Source: Deltaproteobacteria bacterium (GTDB taxonomy: Bacteria; Desulfobacterota; Desulfarculia; Desulfarculales; Desulfarculaceae). From it: a stretch of DNA of 37,413 nt. The number at the start of each line of letters is the position of its first letter. Positions within the stretch are counted from its first letter, which is position 1. Shown here one piece after another: positions 4,731 through 37,413 of this stretch. Under the pieces are notes generated by a model. That model had not been told where the DNA came from. It saw only the letters and a program-made list of their open reading frames with translations, and searched no databases. The stretch covers positions 1-37,413 of the forward strand of contig JAHLLK010000062.1 in assembly GCA_020444165.1 (NCBI GenBank). The letters run 5' to 3'. The position numbers and the translations under genes are program-made.

Positions 4731-6338
4731 CTATCCCAACTGGGGCTGCGCTTCCGCCCGGCGCAGTTGGAAACGCTGGATCTTGCCGGTGGCGGTCTTG
4801 GGCAGCTCCGGCACGAAGTTGATCCAGCGGGGGTATTTGTAGGGCGCCAGCCCGCCCTTGCACAGCTTCAGAAGGTCGTCCCGCAGGTTCTCGCAAGCCT
4901 CCTGGGCGTTTTTCAGCACGATGTAGGCCGCGGGCTTGACCAGGCCGTTCTCGTCGTTCTGTCCCACCACCGCGGCCTCCAGCACCTGGGGGTGCTCGAT
5001 GATCTTGGCCTCGATCTCAAAGGGCGAGCACCAGATGCCCCCCACCTTGAGCATGTCGTCGTTGCGCCCGCAGTAGTAGTAGAAATCCCCGGCGTCCTTG
5101 TAGTAGGTGTCGCCGGTGTCCAGCCAACCCTCAGCCAGCATGGTGCCGGCGGTCTTGGCGGGGTTGTTCCAATAATACTTGGCCGTGGAGCCGCCGCGGA
5201 TCAACAACCGCCCCGCCTCGCCCACCGGCAGTTCCGAGCCCTCGCGGTCCACGATGCGGGCCTCGTACCCCTCCACCAGCTTGCCGCTGGAGCCGGGCAT
5301 CACATCTCCCGGGCGGTTGCAGATGAAGATGTGCAACACCTCGGTGGAACCGATGCCGTCCAGGATGTCCCGGCCGGTGTGCTCCCGCCAGCGCCGCAGG
5401 ATGTCGGCCGGCAGGGCCTCGCCGGCCGAGACGCAGGCCCGCACCGCGGAGGTGTCGCGGGGGGCTTTTTCCAGGGCGGCCAGTTGGGCGGCATAGAGGG
5501 TGGGCACCCCGAAGTACAGGGTGGGGCGGAGTTTTTCGATCACCGCGAAAGTGGAGTCCGGGGTGGGCCGCGCGGCCGAGAGCACCGCGGTGCCGCCGCA
5601 CCACAGGGGGAAGTACATGCCGTTGCCCAGGCCGTAGGCAAAGAACAGCTTGGCCGCGGAGAAGAACACATCGTCCGGCCCCACGCCCAACACCCCCTGG
5701 GCGAAGTAGTGGCTGGTGAACACCATGTCCTGGTGGCAGTGCACGGTCCCCTTGGGCGCGCCGGTGGAGCCCGAGGAGTAGAGCCAGAAGCACTCGTCCG
5801 TGGCCTTGGTGGGGTGGAGGTCCAGCTCGTCGCTGGCCTCGGCCATGAGGGTGGCGAAATCCCGCCCCTGGCCTTGGGTGCGGATGGCAAAGCGCGGGCC
5901 CTGGGTGGCCTGGGCCAGGGCCGTTTCCACCTCGCCGGCGTACTCGGGCGAGTACACCACCGCGCCGCAGCCCGAGTCCTCCAGCATGAACTTGTAGTCC
6001 TTGGCCCGCAGGATGGTGTTGATGGGCACCGGCACCAGCCCGGCCTTCACCGCCCCCCAGAAAACATAAAAGAACTCCGGAGAGTCCTTGATCATCAGCA
6101 GCACCCGGTCGCCCGGGGTCAAGCCCAAGCCCAGGAGAGCTTGCCCGGCCCGGTTCACCCGCCCCGCCAGCTCCGCGTAGGTTACGTTCTCTCCCTCGTC
6201 GGTGCGTATGGCCGCTTTGCCGCCGCGGCCTTCCCCCAAGTGGCGGTCTATGAAATGACCGGCCACGTTGAAACAGGGTGCAAAAACCAAGCGGCTGGTG
6301 GAGCCAACCGAATCAACTGTGAAGGTGTGGTTTTGCAT
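4731..6338 (-). CDS. Benzoate-CoA ligase family protein (AMP-forming)
   Basis: A 535-residue class I adenylate-forming enzyme. It would activate benzoate or a substituted benzoate with ATP and CoA to the aryl-CoA thioester, the entry step of anaerobic aromatic degradation. ATG 6338 is chosen for its GGGAGGGAGAG Shine-Dalgarno; 33 upstream in-frame codons lack a site. Visible motifs: the P-loop YSSGSTGAPKGTVH, GIGSTEVLHIFICN (A5), the DTGDTYYKDAGDFYYYCGRN hinge region (A7-A8), and the catalytic lysine in PKTATGKIQRF near the C-terminus. The HxFxCN-type segment after GSTE and the overall size fit the benzoate/hydroxybenzoate-CoA ligase branch rather than acetyl- or long-chain ligases. Exact substrate is inference. 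A sigma-54 promoter and upstream dyad precede it, next to an NtrC-type regulator gene. Confidence 0.85.
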   Translation of the reverse strand: MQNHTFTVDSVGSTSRLVFAPCFNVAGHFIDRHLGEGRGGKAAIRTDEGENVTYAELAGRVNRAGQALLGLGLTPGDRVLLMIKDSPEFFYVFWGAVKAGLVPVPINTILRAKDYKFMLEDSGCGAVVYSPEYAGEVETALAQATQGPRFAIRTQGQGRDFATLMAEASDELDLHPTKATDECFWLYSSGSTGAPKGTVHCHQDMVFTSHYFAQGVLGVGPDDVFFSAAKLFFAYGLGNGMYFPLWCGGTAVLSAARPTPDSTFAVIEKLRPTLYFGVPTLYAAQLAALEKAPRDTSAVRACVSAGEALPADILRRWREHTGRDILDGIGSTEVLHIFICNRPGDVMPGSSGKLVEGYEARIVDREGSELPVGEAGRLLIRGGSTAKYYWNNPAKTAGTMLAEGWLDTGDTYYKDAGDFYYYCGRNDDMLKVGGIWCSPFEIEAKIIEHPQVLEAAVVGQNDENGLVKPAAYIVLKNAQEACENLRDDLLKLCKGGLAPYKYPRWINFVPELPKTATGKIQRFQLRRAEAQPQLG

Positions 6339-6420
6339 GGCATCTCTCCCTCCCGGCCCGGAGGCCGGCTGCCTTGGCGTTTGGCGGGCCATCTTCGCGG
6401 GCCCCAATGGTGGGAGAGAA

Positions 6421-6436
6421 AGCAAGGGCCATGCCA
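6421..6436 (-). promoter_or_regulatory. Sigma-54 (-24/-12) promoter of the benzoate-CoA ligase gene
   Basis: On the minus strand the sequence reads TGGCATGGCCCTTGCT, matching the sigma-54 consensus TGGCAYR-N4-TTGCW at every conserved position, with GG and GC at the obligatory spacing. Transcription would start near 6410, leaving about a 70-nt leader before ATG 6338. The neighbouring regulator carries the GAFTGA motif needed to activate sigma-54. Confidence 0.85.
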
Positions 6437-6519
6437 CCCGGGGTGCTGCCGGGTTAGCCCTTGATTTAACGTTACTTATGCCATGGGAATCGGTTGCGTT
6501 GCCGCAGGAGGGAGCGAAA

Positions 6520-6538
6520 CTGTAAAGCTATTTTACAG
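6520..6538. promoter_or_regulatory. Probable activator-binding dyad (UAS) for the NtrC-type regulator
   Basis: A perfect inverted repeat CTGTAAA-GCTAT-TTTACAG, centred at 6529, lies about 120 bp upstream of the predicted start of transcription of the ligase gene. That is the usual distance for an upstream activator sequence bound by a sigma-54 activator dimer. A further TTTTACA half-site occurs at 6565-6571. That it binds the neighbouring regulator is inference. Confidence 0.6.
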
Positions 6539-6659
6539 CTGTGCCCGCCGAGGCTTGCCAATTTTTTTACAATATTGGCCCTCCCGGCCGGGGCGCCCCG
6601 GCTCAGGTTTGTGGCCATGTGCGCGGCCCTCCCGCGCCGGCTCTCGCCGCCGCACCGGC

Positions 6660-8024
6660 TCAGGTGGGGGACTTCACCAACAGGCCGTGGCGCAGCATGC
6701 GTTTGTGCAGGGTGGGCCGCGAGATGCCGAGCGCCCGGGCGGTGGCCGAGTAGTTCCACCCGGTGGCGGTGAGGGCGGCCAGGATGCGGTCCCGCTCCGC
6801 GGCCGCGGCCGGCGGCGGCGCGGCCGGGGCCGGGCTGGGCGGCGGCTGGCTGGCCAGGGCCGCCTGCACCACTTCCGTCAGCAGCACGGCGCCCCGGGCC
6901 TCCAACAGGGCCTTGGTCAACACGTTCCTGAGTTCCCGCACGTTGCCCGGCCAGTCATGGGCCAACAGCACGGCCAGGGCCCCCTTTTCCACCCGGGTCA
7001 CCCGGGTGCCCAGTTCGGGGTTCAAGCGCGAGATGAAATACTCCACCATCTCCAGGATGTCTTCCTTGCGCTCCCGCAGGGGCGGCACCCGGATGCTGAT
7101 GACTTTGAGCCGGTAGAGGAGGTCCTGGCGGAAGCGCCCCCGGCGCACCAGCTCGCCGCAGTCGTGGTTGGTGGCGGCGATGATGCGGGCGGCCGAACGC
7201 AGCACCTGGGTGCCGCCCACCCGGGTGAACTCCCGGTATTCCAGGAAGCGCAGGAGCTTGGCTTGCAAGGTCAGGGGCAGGTCGCCGATTTCGTCGAAGA
7301 AGATGGCGCCCTCCCCGGCCAGCTCCAGGCGGCCGGGCTTGGCTTCCAGAGCCCCGGTAAAAGCCCCGCGTTCGTGGCCGAACAGCTCGGACTCCAGGAG
7401 GTTCTCCACCAGGGTGGTGCAGTCCACGGTCACGAAAGGCTCTCCGCCCAACAGCGAGGACTGGTGAATCACCTGGGCGATCAGCTCCTTGCCGGTGCCG
7501 GTCTCGCCCTCGATGAGCACCGTGGCCCGGTTGCGGGCCAACAGCCCCACGGTCTTGAAGATGCCGCGCATCACCGTGGTGCGGCCCACCAGGCGCTGGG
7601 AAGGCGGGAACTCCCCCAGGGGGTGGGACAGGGCCCGGGAGCCGTGCAGGGCCTCGTTCATGCGCATGGCCCGGCTCACCGTCTGCTCCAGCTCGTCCAC
7701 GTCCAGGGGCTTGTTGAGATAATCGAAAGCGCCGCCGCGCATGGCCGCGATGGTGGAGTCGATGTCGTGGAAGGCGGTGATGATGATCACGTTGGCCAGG
7801 GGGTCCTCGGCCATGATCGTGGCCAACACCTCCAGGCCCGACATGTCCGGCAGGCGGACATCCAGGATCACCACCTGGGGTCGCTGGCGCTGCCACAAGG
7901 CCAAGCCCTCGGCGCCATTGGCGGCCGTGCGCACGGCATAGCCCTTTTCCCGCAGGAACATGTCCAGGGACTCCCGGATGGAGGCCTCGTCATCCACCAC
8001 CAAAATGGACTTCAGGGCAGGCAT
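6660..8024 (-). CDS. Sigma-54-dependent response regulator, NtrC/AtoC family
   Basis: A full-length 454-residue NtrC-type regulator. The receiver domain (1-120) has the acidic pair D11-D12, phosphoacceptor D55 (VVILDVRLPD), T83 and K105. The AAA+ domain has Walker A GETGTGKE (173-180), GAFTGA (220-225), Walker B IFFDE (241-245) and the RFRQDLLYRL sensor region. After a Pro/Ala linker, a Fis-type helix-turn-helix (about 412-446, NYSATARALGISRPTLHKRM) binds DNA. Its ATG at 8024 lies 13 nt inside the kinase gene, so the two are translationally coupled and almost certainly form a cognate pair. The divergent-free arrangement places the ligase directly downstream with its own sigma-54 promoter, which makes the ligase the most likely target. 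Confidence 0.93.
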   Translation of the reverse strand: MPALKSILVVDDEASIRESLDMFLREKGYAVRTAANGAEGLALWQRQRPQVVILDVRLPDMSGLEVLATIMAEDPLANVIIITAFHDIDSTIAAMRGGAFDYLNKPLDVDELEQTVSRAMRMNEALHGSRALSHPLGEFPPSQRLVGRTTVMRGIFKTVGLLARNRATVLIEGETGTGKELIAQVIHQSSLLGGEPFVTVDCTTLVENLLESELFGHERGAFTGALEAKPGRLELAGEGAIFFDEIGDLPLTLQAKLLRFLEYREFTRVGGTQVLRSAARIIAATNHDCGELVRRGRFRQDLLYRLKVISIRVPPLRERKEDILEMVEYFISRLNPELGTRVTRVEKGALAVLLAHDWPGNVRELRNVLTKALLEARGAVLLTEVVQAALASQPPPSPAPAAPPPAAAAERDRILAALTATGWNYSATARALGISRPTLHKRMLRHGLLVKSPT

Positions 8025-9586
8025 GGCAGCCTCAAGGCAAAAGTGGCCCCCTGGCCGGGACGGGTGCGCACCGTCACCTCACCGCCGTGGGCCTCCATGA
8101 CCCGCTTCACGTTCAAAAGCCCCAGACCGGTGCCCTGCTGCTTGCGGGTGAAGAACGGTTTGAACAAAAGCGGCAGATCGGCCGGCGCGATGCCCGGGCC
8201 CTGGTCCCGCACCCCCAGTTCCAAAAAGCTCACCCCCTGGGCCCGGCCCTTGCGAGTCCACACCGTGAGCACCCCGCCGGGGGGCGAGGCGTCCAGGGCG
8301 TTGAACAATAGGTTCTGCCAGGCCTGCTGCAGGCTGGCCGCGTCGCCCAAGACCGGCGGCAGGTTGCGGGCGTGCCGCTGGCGCACGGCGAGCTGGTTTT
8401 CCCGCAGCCGGGGCTCCAGGAGGTCCAGGCCGGTCCGGGCCAGGCTGGCCAGGTCCACCGGCACGGGCTCCAGCCGCATGGGCCGCACCGTATCCAAGAG
8501 CTGGCGCATGACCTCTTCCAGGCGCCCCACTTCCGAGGCGGTGATGTCCAGGCGGCGGCGGTCAAAACCGTCCACCTCCAGGTTGCGGCAGAGGATCTGG
8601 AGGTTCATCTTGATGGCCGACAGCGGATTGCGGATCTCGTGGCTCAGGGAGGCGGTGAGTTGGCCCAAATAGGCCAGGCGCTCGTGCTCCCGGGCCTGGG
8701 CCTCCAGGTTCAGGCGCTCGCTGATGTCCCGGCAGATGCCGAGCGTCAGCCGGCCCTGGCCCAGGTCCACCAGGCGGGCCTTCATCTCGGTGGCCGCCCG
8801 CTCCGGCGGGCAGCCCAGGCGGTCGTACTCCATGAACCGGGGCGTCTCCTCGCCGGCCATGGCCCGGCGGTAGACCTCGCGCACCAGGGGCCGGGAGGCC
8901 GGAGCCACGAAGCGCAGGAACGGCCGGCCCAGGGCGTCTTCGCGGCTCACCCCGTGCATGCGGCAGAAGGCGGGGTTGGCAAAGCGGATCTTGCTCTTCT
9001 GGATGACCACGAAGCCGTCGCTTATCTCCTCCACCAGGGCCTTGTAGCGCCGGCGCTCATCGGCCAGCTCCACGGTGCGCGCGGCCACCTCCTTTTCCAG
9101 CTCCCGGGCGTGGTCGTTCACCACCTGGTCGTGCATGGCCTGGAAGTAATCCGAGAAACCCTGGATTGTGTGGGAAAGGCAGGCGTTCAGGGGCGGCAGG
9201 GCCTGGGCCAGGAGCTCTTCCCGGCCGGGGGCCAACAGGCGCTCCACCACGATGGTGCGGAACAGCTCAAAGGCCTGCTGCACGGCGGAAAGGGGAAACC
9301 CCGCCTTGAGGCGCTTCCTGGTGATGTAATCGATGAATTGCTCAATGCCGGCCAAGCTGCCGGTGGCCAGGGCCTCGTGGTAGGCCGCATAGGCGCCGCG
9401 CACGGTGTAGCCGAGCTCCGCGGCGGAGCGTGCGGCATAGCGGGGGGAAAGCCCGGCCAGGCGGCTGGCCCATTCCCGCAGGATCTCCTTCTTGTGCTCC
9501 TCCAACCAGGCCAGAAAGGCCGGCCGGGGCGGATGCCCCAGGGTTTTGCCGGAAAGGGTGGCGGTATGGGGAGGAGGCGGCGTCAT
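8012..9586 (-). CDS. Cytoplasmic sensor histidine kinase with RsbRD_N and PAS domains
   Basis: A 524-residue kinase with no membrane segment. Residues about 22-160 (LEEHKKEILREWASRL through the FELFRTIVVERLL helix) resemble the RsbRD N-terminal four-helix domain of RsbR-like stress sensors. A coiled coil (about 155-182) leads to a PAS domain (about 183-290). HisKA carries SLSHEIRNPLSAIK with phosphoacceptor H316. The ATPase domain shows the N box NLLFNALDA (425-433), DQGPGIA (461-467) and GTGLGL (485-490). It would sense an internal signal, perhaps the aromatic substrate or redox state (inference), and phosphorylate the regulator whose start it overlaps. An AGGATA lies 10-15 nt before the ATG. 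Confidence 0.9.
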   Translation of the reverse strand: MTPPPPHTATLSGKTLGHPPRPAFLAWLEEHKKEILREWASRLAGLSPRYAARSAAELGYTVRGAYAAYHEALATGSLAGIEQFIDYITRKRLKAGFPLSAVQQAFELFRTIVVERLLAPGREELLAQALPPLNACLSHTIQGFSDYFQAMHDQVVNDHARELEKEVAARTVELADERRRYKALVEEISDGFVVIQKSKIRFANPAFCRMHGVSREDALGRPFLRFVAPASRPLVREVYRRAMAGEETPRFMEYDRLGCPPERAATEMKARLVDLGQGRLTLGICRDISERLNLEAQAREHERLAYLGQLTASLSHEIRNPLSAIKMNLQILCRNLEVDGFDRRRLDITASEVGRLEEVMRQLLDTVRPMRLEPVPVDLASLARTGLDLLEPRLRENQLAVRQRHARNLPPVLGDAASLQQAWQNLLFNALDASPPGGVLTVWTRKGRAQGVSFLELGVRDQGPGIAPADLPLLFKPFFTRKQQGTGLGLLNVKRVMEAHGGEVTVRTRPGQGATFALRLPCLP

Positions 9587-12954: not shown

Positions 12955-13572
12955 ATGGCAACAAAGGAAGAGCTCGAGAAGCTGAAGAACAGGTCACCCG
13001 CAGACTGGGCAATCTTTGTCCTGGGGTTCGTTTTGGCGGCGGCCTTGGGCTTCTGGCTCACCCCCACCATCCTCTACGCGGAGAAAGAGCAGCCCATGCA
13101 GTTCGACCACGTGCTCCACATGGAGCAGGTGTCTGACGGCTGCAAATCCTGCCATACCTTCCGCGAGGATGGCTCGTTTACCGGTATTCCCACGCTGGAA
13201 AACTGCAAGGAGTGCCATAGCGAGGAGCCACAGGGCGAGAATCCCAACGAGAAGATTTTGGCCAAGCACATCGCCGAAAACAAGCCCATCGAGTGGCTGG
13301 TCTACGCCCAGCAGCCGGATTGCGTGTTCTTTTCTCACGCGGCTCATACGGCCAACGCCGGGTTGGAATGCACCCAGTGTCACGGCAAGCAAGGCGAGAC
13401 CAAGACCCTCAGGCCGTATCAGTACAACCGCCTGACGGGTTACAGCCGCGATCTTTGGGGCCAGAGCCTGATCCCCCTGGGCTCGCCTCCCGATCGCATG
13501 AAAATGGACGATTGTGCCAACTGCCACCGCGACAATGGTGTGCGTGACGCCTGCTTCGTCTGCCACAAGTAG
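12955..13572 (+). CDS. qrcA: Menaquinone reductase subunit QrcA, membrane-anchored multiheme cytochrome c
   Basis: A 205-residue cytochrome c of the Qrc complex, which takes electrons from periplasmic type I cytochrome c3 and reduces menaquinone. A single hydrophobic helix at about 18-40 (WAIFVLGFVLAAALGFWL) acts as an uncleaved anchor. The periplasmic domain has five CxxCH haem sites at C63, C84, C139, C187 and C200. F-x-H-x2-H patterns before the first and third sites (MQFDHVLH, VFFSHAAH) supply axial His ligands, as in c3/c7-type cytochromes. Qrc cytochromes have been described as hexahaem; I see only five canonical motifs plus an isolated C123. It is the first gene of the operon, with a long leader. 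Confidence 0.93.
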   Translation: MATKEELEKLKNRSPADWAIFVLGFVLAAALGFWLTPTILYAEKEQPMQFDHVLHMEQVSDGCKSCHTFREDGSFTGIPTLENCKECHSEEPQGENPNEKILAKHIAENKPIEWLVYAQQPDCVFFSHAAHTANAGLECTQCHGKQGETKTLRPYQYNRLTGYSRDLWGQSLIPLGSPPDRMKMDDCANCHRDNGVRDACFVCHK

Positions 13573-32492: not shown

Positions 32493-33392
32493 TTGGAGCG
32501 CTTACAAAAAATTTTGGCCCGGGCGGGAGTAGCCTCCCGCCGCGCGGCCGAGGAAATGATCCGCGAGGGGCGGGTGAGCGTGGACGGCCAAGTGGTGCAG
32601 GAATTGGGCGCCAAGGCCGACCCCCGCCGCCAGCGGATCATGGTGGACGGCCGTCCCCTGCCCCAGCCCGAGCACCTGACCTACTGGATCCTGCACAAGC
32701 CCCGCGGGGTGGTGAGCACGGTCCAGGACCCCCAGGGCCGCCGCCGGGTGCTGGACCTGCTGCCCCCCGAGGCCAAGGGCCGCCTATTTCCCGTGGGGCG
32801 GCTGGACGCCGACTCCGAGGGGCTGATGCTGCTGACCAACGACGGCGAGGTGGCGCTGCGCATCACCCACCCCCGCTACCAGGTGGCTCGCACCTACCGG
32901 GTGTGGGTGGAGGGCACGCCCTCGGCCACCGCCCTGACCCGGATCAAGGAAGGGGTGGACCTGGAGGACGGCCGCACCTCGCCGGCCCTGGTGACCCTGA
33001 AGGGCACCACCGACGGCCGGGCCAAACTGCGCTTGGTGCTCTTTGAGGGCCGCAAGCGGGAGATTCGCCGCATGTGCGAGGCCGTGGGCCATCCGGTGGA
33101 GCGCCTGGTGCGGGTGGGCCTCGGGCCGTTAGAACTGGGCGACCTGCCCTACGGCCACTCGCGGCCCCTGAGCCCCGGCGAGGTGACCCAGCTGAAAAAG
33201 AGTTTGGGGTTACTAAGCAGTTGCAAAACCTCTGACCATGGTGTAAAAAAATCGCCGCGGGACCGACGCACCCGGCGGGACCAGCAGGACCAGGGAGCGT
33301 GCTCCCGAACCGGCCGGGACAACGAGCGCGGCGGGGCTCCAGGCCGAAAGGGCCCAGGGCCGCACCCCGGCAAGCGAAATTCAGGGCGGTAA
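32493..33392 (+). CDS. rluB: 23S rRNA pseudouridine synthase, RluB/RsuA family
   Basis: A 299-residue pseudouridine synthase. An N-terminal S4 RNA-binding domain (LQKILARAGVASRRAAEEMI) is followed by the catalytic domain, with the active-site Asp in VGRLDADSEGLMLLTNDGEV and the KREIRRMCEAVGHPVERLVR segment. It would modify 23S rRNA near position 2605 (family knowledge). The start is TTG 32493 with GAGGAAG upstream. The last 60 residues, from about KTSDHGVKKS, are a basic, low-complexity tail rich in Arg, Gly and Asp. The gene runs 10 nt into the tRNA-Val gene: the TAA stop (33390-33392) lies at tRNA positions 8-10. Tail length is therefore set by tRNA sequence, which is odd. Confidence 0.92.
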   Translation: MERLQKILARAGVASRRAAEEMIREGRVSVDGQVVQELGAKADPRRQRIMVDGRPLPQPEHLTYWILHKPRGVVSTVQDPQGRRRVLDLLPPEAKGRLFPVGRLDADSEGLMLLTNDGEVALRITHPRYQVARTYRVWVEGTPSATALTRIKEGVDLEDGRTSPALVTLKGTTDGRAKLRLVLFEGRKREIRRMCEAVGHPVERLVRVGLGPLELGDLPYGHSRPLSPGEVTQLKKSLGLLSSCKTSDHGVKKSPRDRRTRRDQQDQGACSRTGRDNERGGAPGRKGPGPHPGKRNSGR

Positions 33393-33457
33393 CTCAGTGG
33401 GAGAGTGCCATCCTCACACGGTGGAAGTCAAGGGTTCAAATCCCTTCCGCCCTACCA
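33383..33457 (+). tRNA. tRNA-Val (anticodon CAC)
   Basis: A complete cloverleaf of 75 nt including encoded CCA. The acceptor is AGGGCGG/CCGCCCT; the D stem ACTC/GAGT has a 7-nt loop. The anticodon stem is CCATC/GGTGG with loop CTCACAC (anticodon CAC at 34-36, reading GUG), and the T arm is AAGGG-TTCAAAT-CCCTT. The discriminator base is A. It begins inside the 3' end of rluB and is followed directly by a strong terminator, so it may be transcribed from the upstream operon or from a promoter inside rluB. Confidence 0.95.
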
Positions 33458-34508: not shown

Positions 34509-36062
34509 TTATTCGGCGTATAGATCCTTGAGGACCCTCTTGAGTATCTTGCCCGTGGGGCCCTTGGGCAGATCCTGAACAAAAATTACGGACTTGGGCG
34601 CCTTGTAGGTGGCAAGGTGCTTCTTGGTATATGCGATGAGATCCTTTTCCGACGCCTCCGCGCCTGGCTTGAGCACCACCAGGGCCACCACCTTTTCCCC
34701 CCAGTCTTCGTCGGGCAGGCCGATGACGCTGGTCTCGACGATGGCTGGGTGCTTGAAAAGCACCTCTTCCACCTCGCGCGGATAGATGTTGATGGCCCCG
34801 CTGACGATCATGTCCTTTTCGCGGTCCACGATGTAGACGTAGCCATCTTCGTCCATGCAGCCCAAGTCGCCGGAGTAGAACCAGCCGTCCTTCATGGTCT
34901 CCGCGGTCAGCTCGGGCATGTTCCAATAGCGGTCCATGAGGTTGTCACCCTTGATGATGATCTCGCCGACATCTTCCATGTCCCGCGCGATATCCGTGCC
35001 GTCCTTGTGGATGAGCCTCACCCGGGTATTGACCACCTCGCGGCCGCAGGAGCGCAAGCGCGGCAATTTGCGAGAGTCGTCCCGGATCATATGCTGCTCA
35101 GCGCTGAGCATGGTGGCAAAGCAGGTGGTCTCGGTCAGCCCGTAGCCCTGGCGGAAGATGTTGCCGAACTTGGCAATAGCCTGGTTGATCACCGACTCTG
35201 GCATGGCCGAGGAACCGTACATGATGGCCCGCAGGCTGGACACGTCCCAATCGTCTATGGTGGGGAACTGCAACAGGCGGATGATCATGGTGGGCACCAC
35301 CACCACGATGCTGATCTTCTCTTCCTGCACCGTGCGCAGGAAGAGCTCCGGCTCAAAGGCGTCCAGGATCACCGAGGTACCGCCCAAGTAGACCATGGGG
35401 ATGATGGAGCAGTTCACCGGGGCTGTGAAGAAGAGCGGATGCACCGAGAGGTTCACGTCCTCGTGCCGGAGCTGGTTTTCGATAATCCCATTCACCGCGT
35501 TGGCCACGATGGCCCGGTGGTTCAGGGCGGCGCCCTTGGGCAGGCTGGTGGTGCCACTGGTGTAGTACAAAAGGATGATGTCGCTTTCATCCACGGCCAC
35601 CGCGGGTTCGTCGGCGGGGTACTGATCGATCAGCTTTTCGTAGTCCAGGTACTCCCGGGAGCCCTGGCGGAACTCCTGGGACTCCCGGTCCACCAGCACC
35701 ACCTTTTCCACGTACCCGTACTCATCTTTTATCTTGGAGGCGTGCTTTTCCCCCACGATTACCACCCGGGGCTCGGCATTGCCCAGGATATGGTCCAGCT
35801 CGTCCTTGAGCTTGGTGCTCACCGGGGCCAGAATGAGCCCCGCCTTGGCGCAGGCCCCTACGATTTCCACGTACTTGTAGCAATTGTCCAGGATCAGGGC
35901 CACCCGGTCCTGCTTTTGCAGCCCCATGCCTATGAGGGCGTTGGCCAGGCGGTTTATGCGTTCATTCAACAGCTCGTAGGTCAGCCGCGTATCCTTGTAG
36001 ATGATCGCCGCTTTCCGAGGATATCTCTTGGCCGCTCTTTCGTACAGTTCCCCGACTACCAT
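34509..36062 (-). CDS. Acyl-CoA synthetase (AMP-forming), class I adenylate-forming family
   Basis: A 517-residue fatty-acid or other carboxylic-acid CoA ligase. ATG 36062 is chosen because AAGGAGG lies 7 nt upstream; an in-frame ATG six codons earlier precedes that site. Visible motifs: the P-loop LYYTSGTTSLPKGAALNHRA (about 165-185), YGLTETTC, YSGDLGCMDEDGYVYIVDRE, and the catalytic lysine in LPKGPTGKILKRVLKD at the C-terminus. The N-terminus starts directly at the AMP-binding domain, as in medium/long-chain acyl-CoA synthetases of Desulfobacterota. Substrate specificity is not readable. It is followed on the same strand by the palindrome and the dehydrogenase relic, and preceded by the racemase-like gene. 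Confidence 0.9.
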   Translation of the reverse strand: MVVGELYERAAKRYPRKAAIIYKDTRLTYELLNERINRLANALIGMGLQKQDRVALILDNCYKYVEIVGACAKAGLILAPVSTKLKDELDHILGNAEPRVVIVGEKHASKIKDEYGYVEKVVLVDRESQEFRQGSREYLDYEKLIDQYPADEPAVAVDESDIILLYYTSGTTSLPKGAALNHRAIVANAVNGIIENQLRHEDVNLSVHPLFFTAPVNCSIIPMVYLGGTSVILDAFEPELFLRTVQEEKISIVVVVPTMIIRLLQFPTIDDWDVSSLRAIMYGSSAMPESVINQAIAKFGNIFRQGYGLTETTCFATMLSAEQHMIRDDSRKLPRLRSCGREVVNTRVRLIHKDGTDIARDMEDVGEIIIKGDNLMDRYWNMPELTAETMKDGWFYSGDLGCMDEDGYVYIVDREKDMIVSGAINIYPREVEEVLFKHPAIVETSVIGLPDEDWGEKVVALVVLKPGAEASEKDLIAYTKKHLATYKAPKSVIFVQDLPKGPTGKILKRVLKDLYAE

Positions 36063-36127
36063 GGTGGTCCCTCCTTGCATGCCATGCGCCGCGACGGCGA
36101 TAACCGGCGGCCGCGTAAGACCTCACC

Positions 36128-37309
36128 CTAACTGAACAGTCCGTCCTTCTCCAATTGCGCGATCTCCTCTGGGGAATAGCCCAACTCCTGCAACACCTCC
36201 CGGTTGTGGGTGCCGGCCATCACTCCGGCCGGCCCATATTCCGGCGGCGTGCGGGAAAACTTCAGGGGGTTGGCCGGCTGCCGGATCTTCTCGCCGCCCT
36301 GCCCCTGCACCTCCACCAGCCAGCCCCGCGCCTGCCCCAGGGGGCTGTTCAGGGCCTGGCCCAGGCTGACCACCGGCTCCAGGCAGGCGTCCACCCCCTG
36401 AAACACCTCCTGCCACTGGGCCCGGGTCTTGGAGGCCATGATCCGGGTCACTTGGGGCTTCACCTCCGCCAGGTTGGGGGGCGACACGCTGCCCGGTATC
36501 AGGTCCTCCCGGCCAATGGCCCGGCAAAAGGCGGCGAAAAACTTGGGCTCCAGGCCTCCGAAGCTCAGGTACTCGTGGTCAGCGGTTTGGTAGAAATCAT
36601 AGAGCGAGCCGCCGTTGAGGAAATAGCCTTCCCGCCGGGGCTCCATTCCCTCCACCAAGTAGTCCATGGCCGCCACCACGTTGAAGGGAACCATCCCGTC
36701 GGTCATGGCCACATCCAGGTATTGGCCTTCCCCGGTGCGCTGGCGGTGGATCACCGCGGCCAGCACCGCGATCACCGTGCCGTAGGAGCCGGAGGCCAGG
36801 TCGGCGATCTGGGTGCCGGTAAGACTGGGGCCCTGCTCCCGGCGGCCGGAATGGGCCATGAGCCCCGAAAGGGCCAGGTAGTTGATGTCGTGCCCAGCCC
36901 GATCCCGCAGGGGCCCGTCCTGGCCGTAGCCGCTGAGGGAGCAGTAGATGAGCGAGGGGTTGACCTCGGCCAGGGCCTGGTAACCCAGCCCCAGCCTGGG
37001 CATGACCCCGGGCCGGAATTGTTCGATGAGGATATCGTAATCCGCCAGGAGCTGGTGGATTATTGCCACCCCCGCCGGATGCTTCAGGTTCAAGGTGAGG
37101 GAGCGCTTGTTGCGCCCCAGATAGGCCAGATTGGCCGCCAGGCCGGAGTTGGGGAGAAAGGGTGGCGTCTCCGCGTTCAGGTCCGGGCGGCTGGGCGAGC
37201 TTATGCGCAGGACCTTGGCCCCCAGGTCGGCCAGGTTGAGGGTGGCAAAGGGCCCGGGCAGCAGCGTGGTGAAGTCCAGTATCTTGAGTCCGTGCAGCGG
37301 CCCTGGCAT
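36128..37309 (-). CDS. CaiB/BaiF family protein, alpha-methylacyl-CoA racemase-like
   Basis: A 393-residue class III CoA-transferase fold protein. ATG 37309 has AAGGA upstream. GLKILDFTTLLPGPFATLNL, DLGAKVLRISSP and NKRSLTLNLKHP are family hallmarks. The segment RAGHDINYLALSG carries the His of alpha-methylacyl-CoA racemases, and the Asp in TQIADLASGSYG fits the second catalytic residue. True CoA-transferases usually have a different residue (often GFD) at the first site. I therefore favour racemase activity on 2-methylacyl-CoA or related thioesters, with CoA transfer as the alternative. It is 65 nt from the synthetase and follows the thiolase on the same strand, so an operon is likely. Confidence 0.85.
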   Translation of the reverse strand: MPGPLHGLKILDFTTLLPGPFATLNLADLGAKVLRISSPSRPDLNAETPPFLPNSGLAANLAYLGRNKRSLTLNLKHPAGVAIIHQLLADYDILIEQFRPGVMPRLGLGYQALAEVNPSLIYCSLSGYGQDGPLRDRAGHDINYLALSGLMAHSGRREQGPSLTGTQIADLASGSYGTVIAVLAAVIHRQRTGEGQYLDVAMTDGMVPFNVVAAMDYLVEGMEPRREGYFLNGGSLYDFYQTADHEYLSFGGLEPKFFAAFCRAIGREDLIPGSVSPPNLAEVKPQVTRIMASKTRAQWQEVFQGVDACLEPVVSLGQALNSPLGQARGWLVEVQGQGGEKIRQPANPLKFSRTPPEYGPAGVMAGTHNREVLQELGYSPEEIAQLEKDGLFS

Positions 37310-37346
37310 GGCTGGTCCTTTTCTCTCCCCACCGCTCCGGCCGGGG

Positions 37347-37413
37347 CTATATCCGTTCAATGATGGTGGCCACGCCCTGGCCGCCGCCCACGCAGGCGTT
37401 GGCGCAGCCCCAG
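37347..37413 (-). CDS. Thiolase (acetyl-CoA acetyltransferase), 3' end only
   Basis: The last 21 codons and stop of a thiolase whose 5' part lies right of the window. The visible end reads WGCANACVGGGQGVATIIER, which has the conserved C-terminal thiolase signature CVGGGQG with the proton-relay cysteine. It is the first gene of the minus-strand cluster seen here, and its stop is 37 nt before the racemase-like start. Thiolysis of acyl-CoA fits the neighbours. Confidence 0.88.
   Translation of the reverse strand, partial: WGCANACVGGGQGVATIIERI

Follow-up and report, generated by a model that had tools for sequence, protein, structure and literature searches.

How the gene for a benzoate-CoA ligase family protein is switched on is the question raised by the stretch of DNA analyzed here (37,413 nucleotides in full, hereafter the window), in which the ligase, an NtrC-type response regulator and a sensor histidine kinase are all encoded on one strand. 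A reading made from the sequence alone (the sequence-only reading) had proposed a complete local sigma-54 circuit for the ligase. We put the probability at about 80% that a cytoplasmic two-component system, likely responding to an aromatic signal, controls the adjacent ligase gene through a dyad and a sigma-54 promoter. The features on which this reading draws are as follows.

4731–6338, minus strand: benzoate-CoA ligase family protein of 535 aa, the payload (TIGR02262)
6339–6410, minus strand: predicted untranslated leader (three-way alignment)
6421–6436, minus strand: sigma-54 -24/-12 element TGGCATGGCCCTTGCT (motif match, with conservation in G001, G002 and the family)
6520–6538, no strand: operator dyad CTGTAAA-N5-TTTACAG, predicted site for the adjacent regulator (perfect symmetry and family dyads)
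6554–6572, minus strand: second conserved A-tract element TTGTAAAAAAATTGGCAAG (three-way alignment)
6660–8024, minus strand: NtrC-type response regulator with receiver, AAA+ domain with GAFTGA and Fis-type helix-turn-helix (PF00072, PF00158, PF02954)
8012–9586, minus strand: soluble sensor histidine kinase with RsbRD_N-like N-terminus, PAS, HisKA and HATPase domains (PF14361, PF08448, PF00512, PF02518)

The window ligase scores above the curated TIGR02262 cut-off (611.6 vs 375.25 bits), and its closest solved structure is the benzoate-CoA ligase 2v7b, to which the stretch AAKLFFAYGLGNG is identical in the alignment; benzoate activity is predicted. The regulator carries the domains that define the NtrC family, namely a receiver, an AAA+ domain with GAFTGA and a C-terminal Fis-type helix-turn-helix (PF02954), the last two as the sequence-only reading had described. 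The regulator gene, starting with the ATG at 8024, shares 13 bases with the end of the kinase gene (stop at 8012), an overlap that had also been claimed. NtrC-family regulators bind upstream sites as oligomers and need phosphorylation; by analogy, the window regulator would be expected to bind upstream as a phosphorylated oligomer, the dyad lying at about -119. No transmembrane-like stretch was found in the window kinase (top 19-residue hydropathy, 0.96). Its AlphaFold model shows an all-helical N-terminal domain (mean pLDDT 82.4, pTM 0.37), the domain arrangement being uncertain because of the pTM value, and the best fold matches of the model are sensor kinases, for example LOV- and PAS-containing ones. 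The kinase probably reads a cytoplasmic signal, since it combines the lack of a transmembrane-like stretch with a helical N-terminus, a PAS domain and these fold matches.

The -24/-12 element (6436–6421) differs at one position from TGGCAC-N5-TTGCW, with exact spacing and with the -24 GG and the -12 GC retained, and the ligase ATG (6338) lies 83 nt downstream, just as had been claimed. From the usual spacing behind the -12 GC, transcription is predicted to start near 6410; the perfect dyad, which the sequence-only reading had put about 120 bp upstream of this point, is centered at 6529, approximately 119 bp upstream. By motif count alone the -24/-12 pattern is not rare in the window (16 matches with up to 2 mismatches vs 20.4 in shuffles). 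With up to 3 mismatches allowed, the pattern of the dyad is matched nowhere else in the window (0.23 matches expected; one or more in 21 of 100 shuffles). Perfect 7-N5-7 dyads of any sequence number 14 in the window vs 5.6 in shuffles (maximum 12). When the search is restricted to the 321-nt gap between regulator and ligase, both elements are unusual: a sense-strand -24/-12 element with up to 1 mismatch arose in 15 of 2000 local shuffles, and a perfect 7-N5-7 dyad in 50 of 2000. Neither element is compelling alone, each being weak evidence when taken singly, and the case for the circuit rests on the conservation of both rather than on either one.

The sequence-only reading was right about these two elements and missed a further one, the A-tract element, which lies about 34 bp further upstream than the dyad and is kept in the three-way alignment. 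It is possibly a weaker second site for the regulator; the family matrix gave no high-scoring partner site within 26 bp of the window dyad. A leader block, TTGGGGCC-NGCG-N-AGA-N-GGCC, is likewise kept across the three closest loci (the window and its two closest orthologous loci). A structured leader RNA was considered and set aside, as the fold z-scores (0.89, 1.52 and -0.70) indicate no unusual fold, and an Rfam search of the window, L072 and L073 found no family in the leader, the only match being a tRNA at window positions 33383–33454. A site for integration host factor between operator and promoter was also rejected, with 8 of 52 loci matching vs 7.1 in shuffles.

A kinase scan of bacterial and archaeal genomes identified 31 loci, among which two, both in draft metagenome genomes, are close orthologs of the full module. 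Kinase, regulator and ligase are 72, 83 and 79% identical to those of the window in L001 and 70, 82 and 76% identical in L002, and the three genes are adjacent in the same order and orientation in all three loci. In the gap between regulator and ligase, the place of the dyad is taken by CTGCAAAATAGCTTTACAA in L001 and CTGCAAAATAGCTTTACAG in L002, and that of the promoter by TGGCACGCCCCTTGCT and TGGCACAACACTTGCT, respectively. The sequence-only reading had named conservation of the dyad and the -24/-12 element in orthologous loci as a check, and both are kept in these two closest loci. The operator of the window, L072 and L073 corresponds to a diverged version of the family operator, CTGYAAA-N5-TTTACAR, without a partner site at 19–24 bp. 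With up to 1 mismatch, this pattern is confined to one place in G001 and one in G002, namely the ligase promoter, which supports, and does not prove, a single-target circuit in these two draft metagenome assemblies. A wider regulon of the window-type operator was considered and rejected: no further place was found in G001 or G002 with up to 1 mismatch, and in other genomes the matches relative to a reversed-pattern control were 2/3 (G003), 16/19 (G006), 7/7 (G181), 3/4 (G203) and 5/4 (G313), so that these matches are attributed to chance, being about as frequent as the control. One exact match was present in G181, and none with up to 1 mismatch in G347.

The kinase was found in 15 of the 21 genomes from the order of G001 and in 58 of 395 genomes sampled from its phylum (E ≤ 1e-60). 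In the phylum search, the best three candidates per genome were scored; 62 places were chosen and 60 taken in, the places left out being mostly weaker or truncated. Dropped before scoring were duplicates (L001–L003), loci with no recognised regulator (L013, L095, L106), remote loci (L017–L031) and loci whose regulator runs off the contig (L004, L008, L094, L096, L105, L122). The scored set comprised 65 loci, the window included, drawn from both kinase searches; L114, whose regulator frame stops early so that the scored stretch is intragenic, is counted among them as a miss. Because the loci are related, the counts that follow do not represent independent events. A -24/-12 element with up to 1 mismatch was found on the sense strand within 500 nt past the regulator stop in 44 of 65 loci (shuffle mean 1.28, maximum 4), with 0 on the antisense strand and 1 of 65 in the kinase-gene interior. 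This strand-specific conservation argues against the view that most ligase transcripts arise by read-through from the kinase–regulator operon and that the promoter-like sequence is incidental; that view is in keeping with three genes on one strand and a gap of 321 nt, and we regard it as very improbable.

A promoter with up to 2 mismatches lies at least 40 nt behind the regulator stop in 52 of the 65 loci. Between the regulator stop and the -24 position, a strong 7-N5-7 dyad was found in 24 of these 52 (mean of 1.24 in shuffles, maximum 5); a weaker rule raised the count to 30 (shuffles 7.9, maximum 14). Among spacers of 2–9, N5 was preferred (25 sites vs at most 9). Strong dyads are absent in 28 of the 52, including L072, which is one pair short of the rule. 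The symmetrised family operator consensus is near CTGGAAAG-N3-CTTTCCAG. With a fixed-letter pattern (17 bp, fixed outer letters, up to 1 mismatch), 19 of 65 loci gave a match, and so did the kinase-gene interior in 8 of 65 (shuffles 2.8); because of these matches within kinase genes and the many TGAAA-type operators that it missed, the pattern was replaced by the symmetry rule. By the symmetry rule, no more than 4 of the 52 loci contain tandem dyads 18–25 bp apart (mean of 0.19 in shuffles, maximum 2). A left-one-out matrix, applied with no shuffle control, placed a partner site scoring above 0 at 19–24 bp in 18 of 25 loci, with no single partner offset giving a mean peak; no partner site in this range was found in the window, L072, L073, L083, L085, L087 or L115. 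The predicted operator and the promoter are conserved together with the kinase–regulator pair.

The dependence of these elements on the kinase was assessed by comparing 16 benzoate-CoA ligase loci beside the kinase with nine ligase relatives elsewhere (42–65% identity), using a rule in which GG and GC are anchored and up to 2 mismatches are allowed within 500 nt upstream; for the four loci with an SSF transporter, the stretch before the first gene of the operon was tested, and for the others the stretch before the ligase. The promoter was present in 15 of 16 linked loci vs 0 of 9 unlinked loci (Fisher P = 4.9e-6, kinship ignored), a control that is weakened because L150–L152 and others follow a same-strand gene and their promoters may lie further up. 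The one exception, L127, has the ligase and the kinase and no promoter by the anchored rule; without the GG/GC anchor, two of the nine unlinked loci (L143 and L148) match with 2 mismatches. Dyads by a loose rule precede 12 of 16 linked loci vs 0 of 9 unlinked loci, although in L127 the matching sequence is a run of A close to the gene, and the best site of L118 is a different one, at L146 12318; none was found by this rule in the linked loci L116, L124, L125 and L006. These counts bear on the alternative that some other protein binds the dyad, or that the main target of the regulator lies elsewhere and the ligase promoter is under another sigma-54 activator. Perfect dyads are common in the window, as counted above, and binding of this one by the regulator is a prediction, which leaves some room for such an arrangement; yet in many loci the dyad accompanies this regulator lineage, it is missing by the loose rule before all nine unlinked ligases and it occurs in a single place in G001 and in G002, and we consider the alternative unlikely.

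Individual loci in this comparison and beside it showed other arrangements. In L095 (G346), the kinase is followed by a TTGGAAA-N5-TTTCCAC dyad, promoter-like sequences and a ligase with no intervening regulator gene; the promoter match with the best score is found upstream of the dyad, and another with two mismatches, read by eye, downstream of it. L147 and L148 (G285 and G324) are ligase relatives with 63–65% identity and without a two-component system, preceded by TTGACA and then a TATAGATATTAG stretch, which, read by eye, could be a sigma-70-type promoter; a TGA that had appeared to lie inside these two ligases is the normal stop codon, close to where the match ends. L143 and L144 (G018 and G008) are unlinked benzoate-CoA ligases behind a gene with an end that, by eye, resembles a LuxR-type helix-turn-helix, which suggests another mode of control for these two.

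Control of the ligase by the adjacent pair is the reading preferred for the window, and the family shows how far the ligase is typical of what such pairs control. Payload labels were assigned by hand from protein clusters, with Pfam run on representatives; in L079, L081, L082 and others a longer antisense ORF hid the gene, and the label was taken from neighboring LIV genes or the antisense cluster. Directly behind the regulator, the 65 loci carry a LIV-type ABC transporter (39 loci), a benzoate-CoA ligase (11), an SSF transporter with a ligase (4), a TRAP transporter (3) or another or unclear gene (8). The dedicated circuit proposed for the window ligase is thereby supported, whereas the lineage itself is not ligase-specific and mostly drives transporters. 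In a tree of kinase plus regulator (FastTree, midpoint root, 62 loci), the ligase payloads are split among three parts that LIV clades separate. Support is 1.0 for the window clade and also for a Desulfatiglans-type clade, while the third grouping, which includes the SSF loci, stays below 0.9 overall. A LIV clade (support 0.91) is grouped with the window clade, the two together having support of 1.0. Judged by sequence, the window appears to hold the ligase form of this lineage, other members of which drive LIV-type, TRAP or SSF transporters with a sister operator (near CTGGAAAG-N3-CTTTCCAG). Both versions are found in G002, where the ligase copy (L073) has the operator CTGCAAAATAGCTTTACAG, of the CTGCAAA type, and the LIV copy (L075) has CTGGCAAG...CTTTCCAC, twice. 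We lean, if only slightly, toward a Desulfobacterota-wide cassette in which a kinase–regulator lineage with its own operator, often tandem, and a sigma-54 promoter would have its cargo exchanged, paralogs being insulated by diverged operators, as in G002. If this is true, the operator signature could be used to predict aromatic-acid uptake transporters and ligases in unannotated genomes of anaerobes.

The nature of the signal was approached through BamA (TIGR03200, E ≤ 1e-110), a marker of the benzoyl-CoA pathway, which was detected in 44 of 58 genomes with the kinase vs 57 of 337 without it among the 395 phylum genomes (P = 1.4e-18, odds ratio 15, kinship ignored); 93 of these 101 genomes are over the curated cut-off. 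BamA is over its cut-off in G001 and G002, and likewise in 20 of 23 module-bearing genomes tested. In Desulfococcus multivorans (G181), the module is found some 3 kb behind oah (TIGR03200) and directly before a glutaryl-CoA dehydrogenase gene. Passages of a study of this species report a BclA protein, not necessarily the module ligase, with all tested aromatics and with cyclohexane carboxylate (PMC5109826). From the ligase payload and the co-occurrence with BamA, the kinase likely senses an aromatic compound.

The signal could nevertheless be another carboxylic acid, because the nearer relatives of the kinase drive transporters and not the ligase. Under this alternative the circuit stands, but the kinase responds to a carboxylic acid that is not aromatic, or else to a general carbon or energy signal, and the ligase is one of several acid-activation genes under its control. 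It would fit the predominance of LIV-type transporters and the presence of TRAP and SSF transporters among the payloads, the ligases further down the LIV loci L113 and L076, which best match fatty-acyl CoA ligase models below their cut-offs, and the 14 of 58 kinase-bearing genomes in which BamA was not found at E ≤ 1e-110. Against it stand the enrichment of BamA, the ligases of the SSF loci, which are 49–51% identical to that of the window, the single locus of G025, in which kinase, regulator and LIV genes are followed by a TIGR02262 ligase, and the hosts of homologs, which among the matches listed include Desulfatiglans anilini and Syntrophorhabdus aromaticivorans, together with Desulfomonile tiedjei. 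We hold this alternative to be possible, though not probable.

With an aromatic signal as the preferred reading, the following sequence of events may be proposed. On detecting a signal inside the cell, for which benzoate, a related aromatic acid or its CoA ester is the likeliest candidate, the soluble kinase would phosphorylate the NtrC-type regulator; the regulator would then bind the dyad, perhaps aided by the A-tract element, form an AAA+ ring and loop to sigma-54 polymerase at 6436–6421, and transcription of the ligase gene would start near 6410. The circuit is conserved in sequence, as seen in its parts, their order and the retention of the predicted operator and promoter, while binding, phosphorylation, looping, start site and signal are the steps that we infer. 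For the study of how obligate anaerobes switch on benzoate activation, it offers a concrete operator and promoter to test.

Elsewhere in the window, QrcA, the multiheme subunit of a menaquinone reductase, is encoded at 12955–13572 on the plus strand (240.7 bits, cut-off 180), which suggests that the host is a sulfate reducer; large plus-strand ORFs behind it, extending to 17946, may encode other Qrc subunits. A second CoA ligase, of the fatty-acyl type (34509–36080, minus strand; NF004837, 512 bits, cut-off 476), and a family III CoA-transferase (36128–37360, minus strand) were also identified.

Among known systems, AtoS/AtoC and ZraS/ZraR share the general domain build of the window pair and are among its best NCBIfam matches; the pair nevertheless falls below their curated cut-offs, the payload differs, and the window sensor is soluble, whereas AtoS and ZraS are membrane sensors. 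The precedent is BamVW of Geobacter metallireducens, where a 2010 paper reportedly linked the ligase gene to a sigma-54 promoter and a two-component system. As there, the window has a two-component system beside a benzoate-CoA ligase gene that a sigma-54 promoter precedes, and the systems of G. metallireducens or Geotalea daltonii and the window, likened by description, share this control of the ligase in an anaerobe; the hosts differ, being Geobacter or Geotalea on the one hand and a probable sulfate reducer (QrcA) on the other. To our knowledge, neither an operator nor payload exchange is known for BamVW. No Geobacter name occurs among the best 120 of 714 and the best 120 of 775 homologs, of which a minority of entries are named. 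Among the matches listed in the open-licence literature, nothing was found on this operator or on the exchange of payloads, the operator itself not having been a query.

Passages of three papers report BamVW two-component and sigma-54 control of benzoate-CoA ligase in Geobacter/Geotalea (PMC6678401; PMC11497800; PMC7324539), and the reference list of a fourth names a 2025 paper on the regulation of the Geotalea daltonii ligase by sigma 54 and bamVW (PMC13119186); the remark in the sequence-only reading that aromatic-CoA ligase control is little described was confined to sulfate reducers and is to be read beside these reports. TdiSR, which according to parts of one paper is a two-component system of the anaerobic toluene/m-xylene pathway of Azoarcus with a pathway metabolite as inducer (PMC5874301), resembles the window, by description, in two-component control of anaerobic aromatic metabolism and differs in pathway, host group and inducer. 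For sulfate reducers, passages on the Desulfovibrio vulgaris sigma-54 regulome describe many enhancer-binding regulators (PMC4641369), a term search of that paper giving no occurrence of 'benzoate', and passages of a 2025 study describe the pathway regulators of Desulfobacteraceae as single-component activators for the most part, sigma-54-dependent ones among them (PMC11887813). The mechanism proposed here is textbook, and this kind of circuit is known from Geobacter; what is added, as read from the genomes compared, is a defined putative operator, its tie to one regulator lineage and the apparent exchange of cargo behind the regulator.
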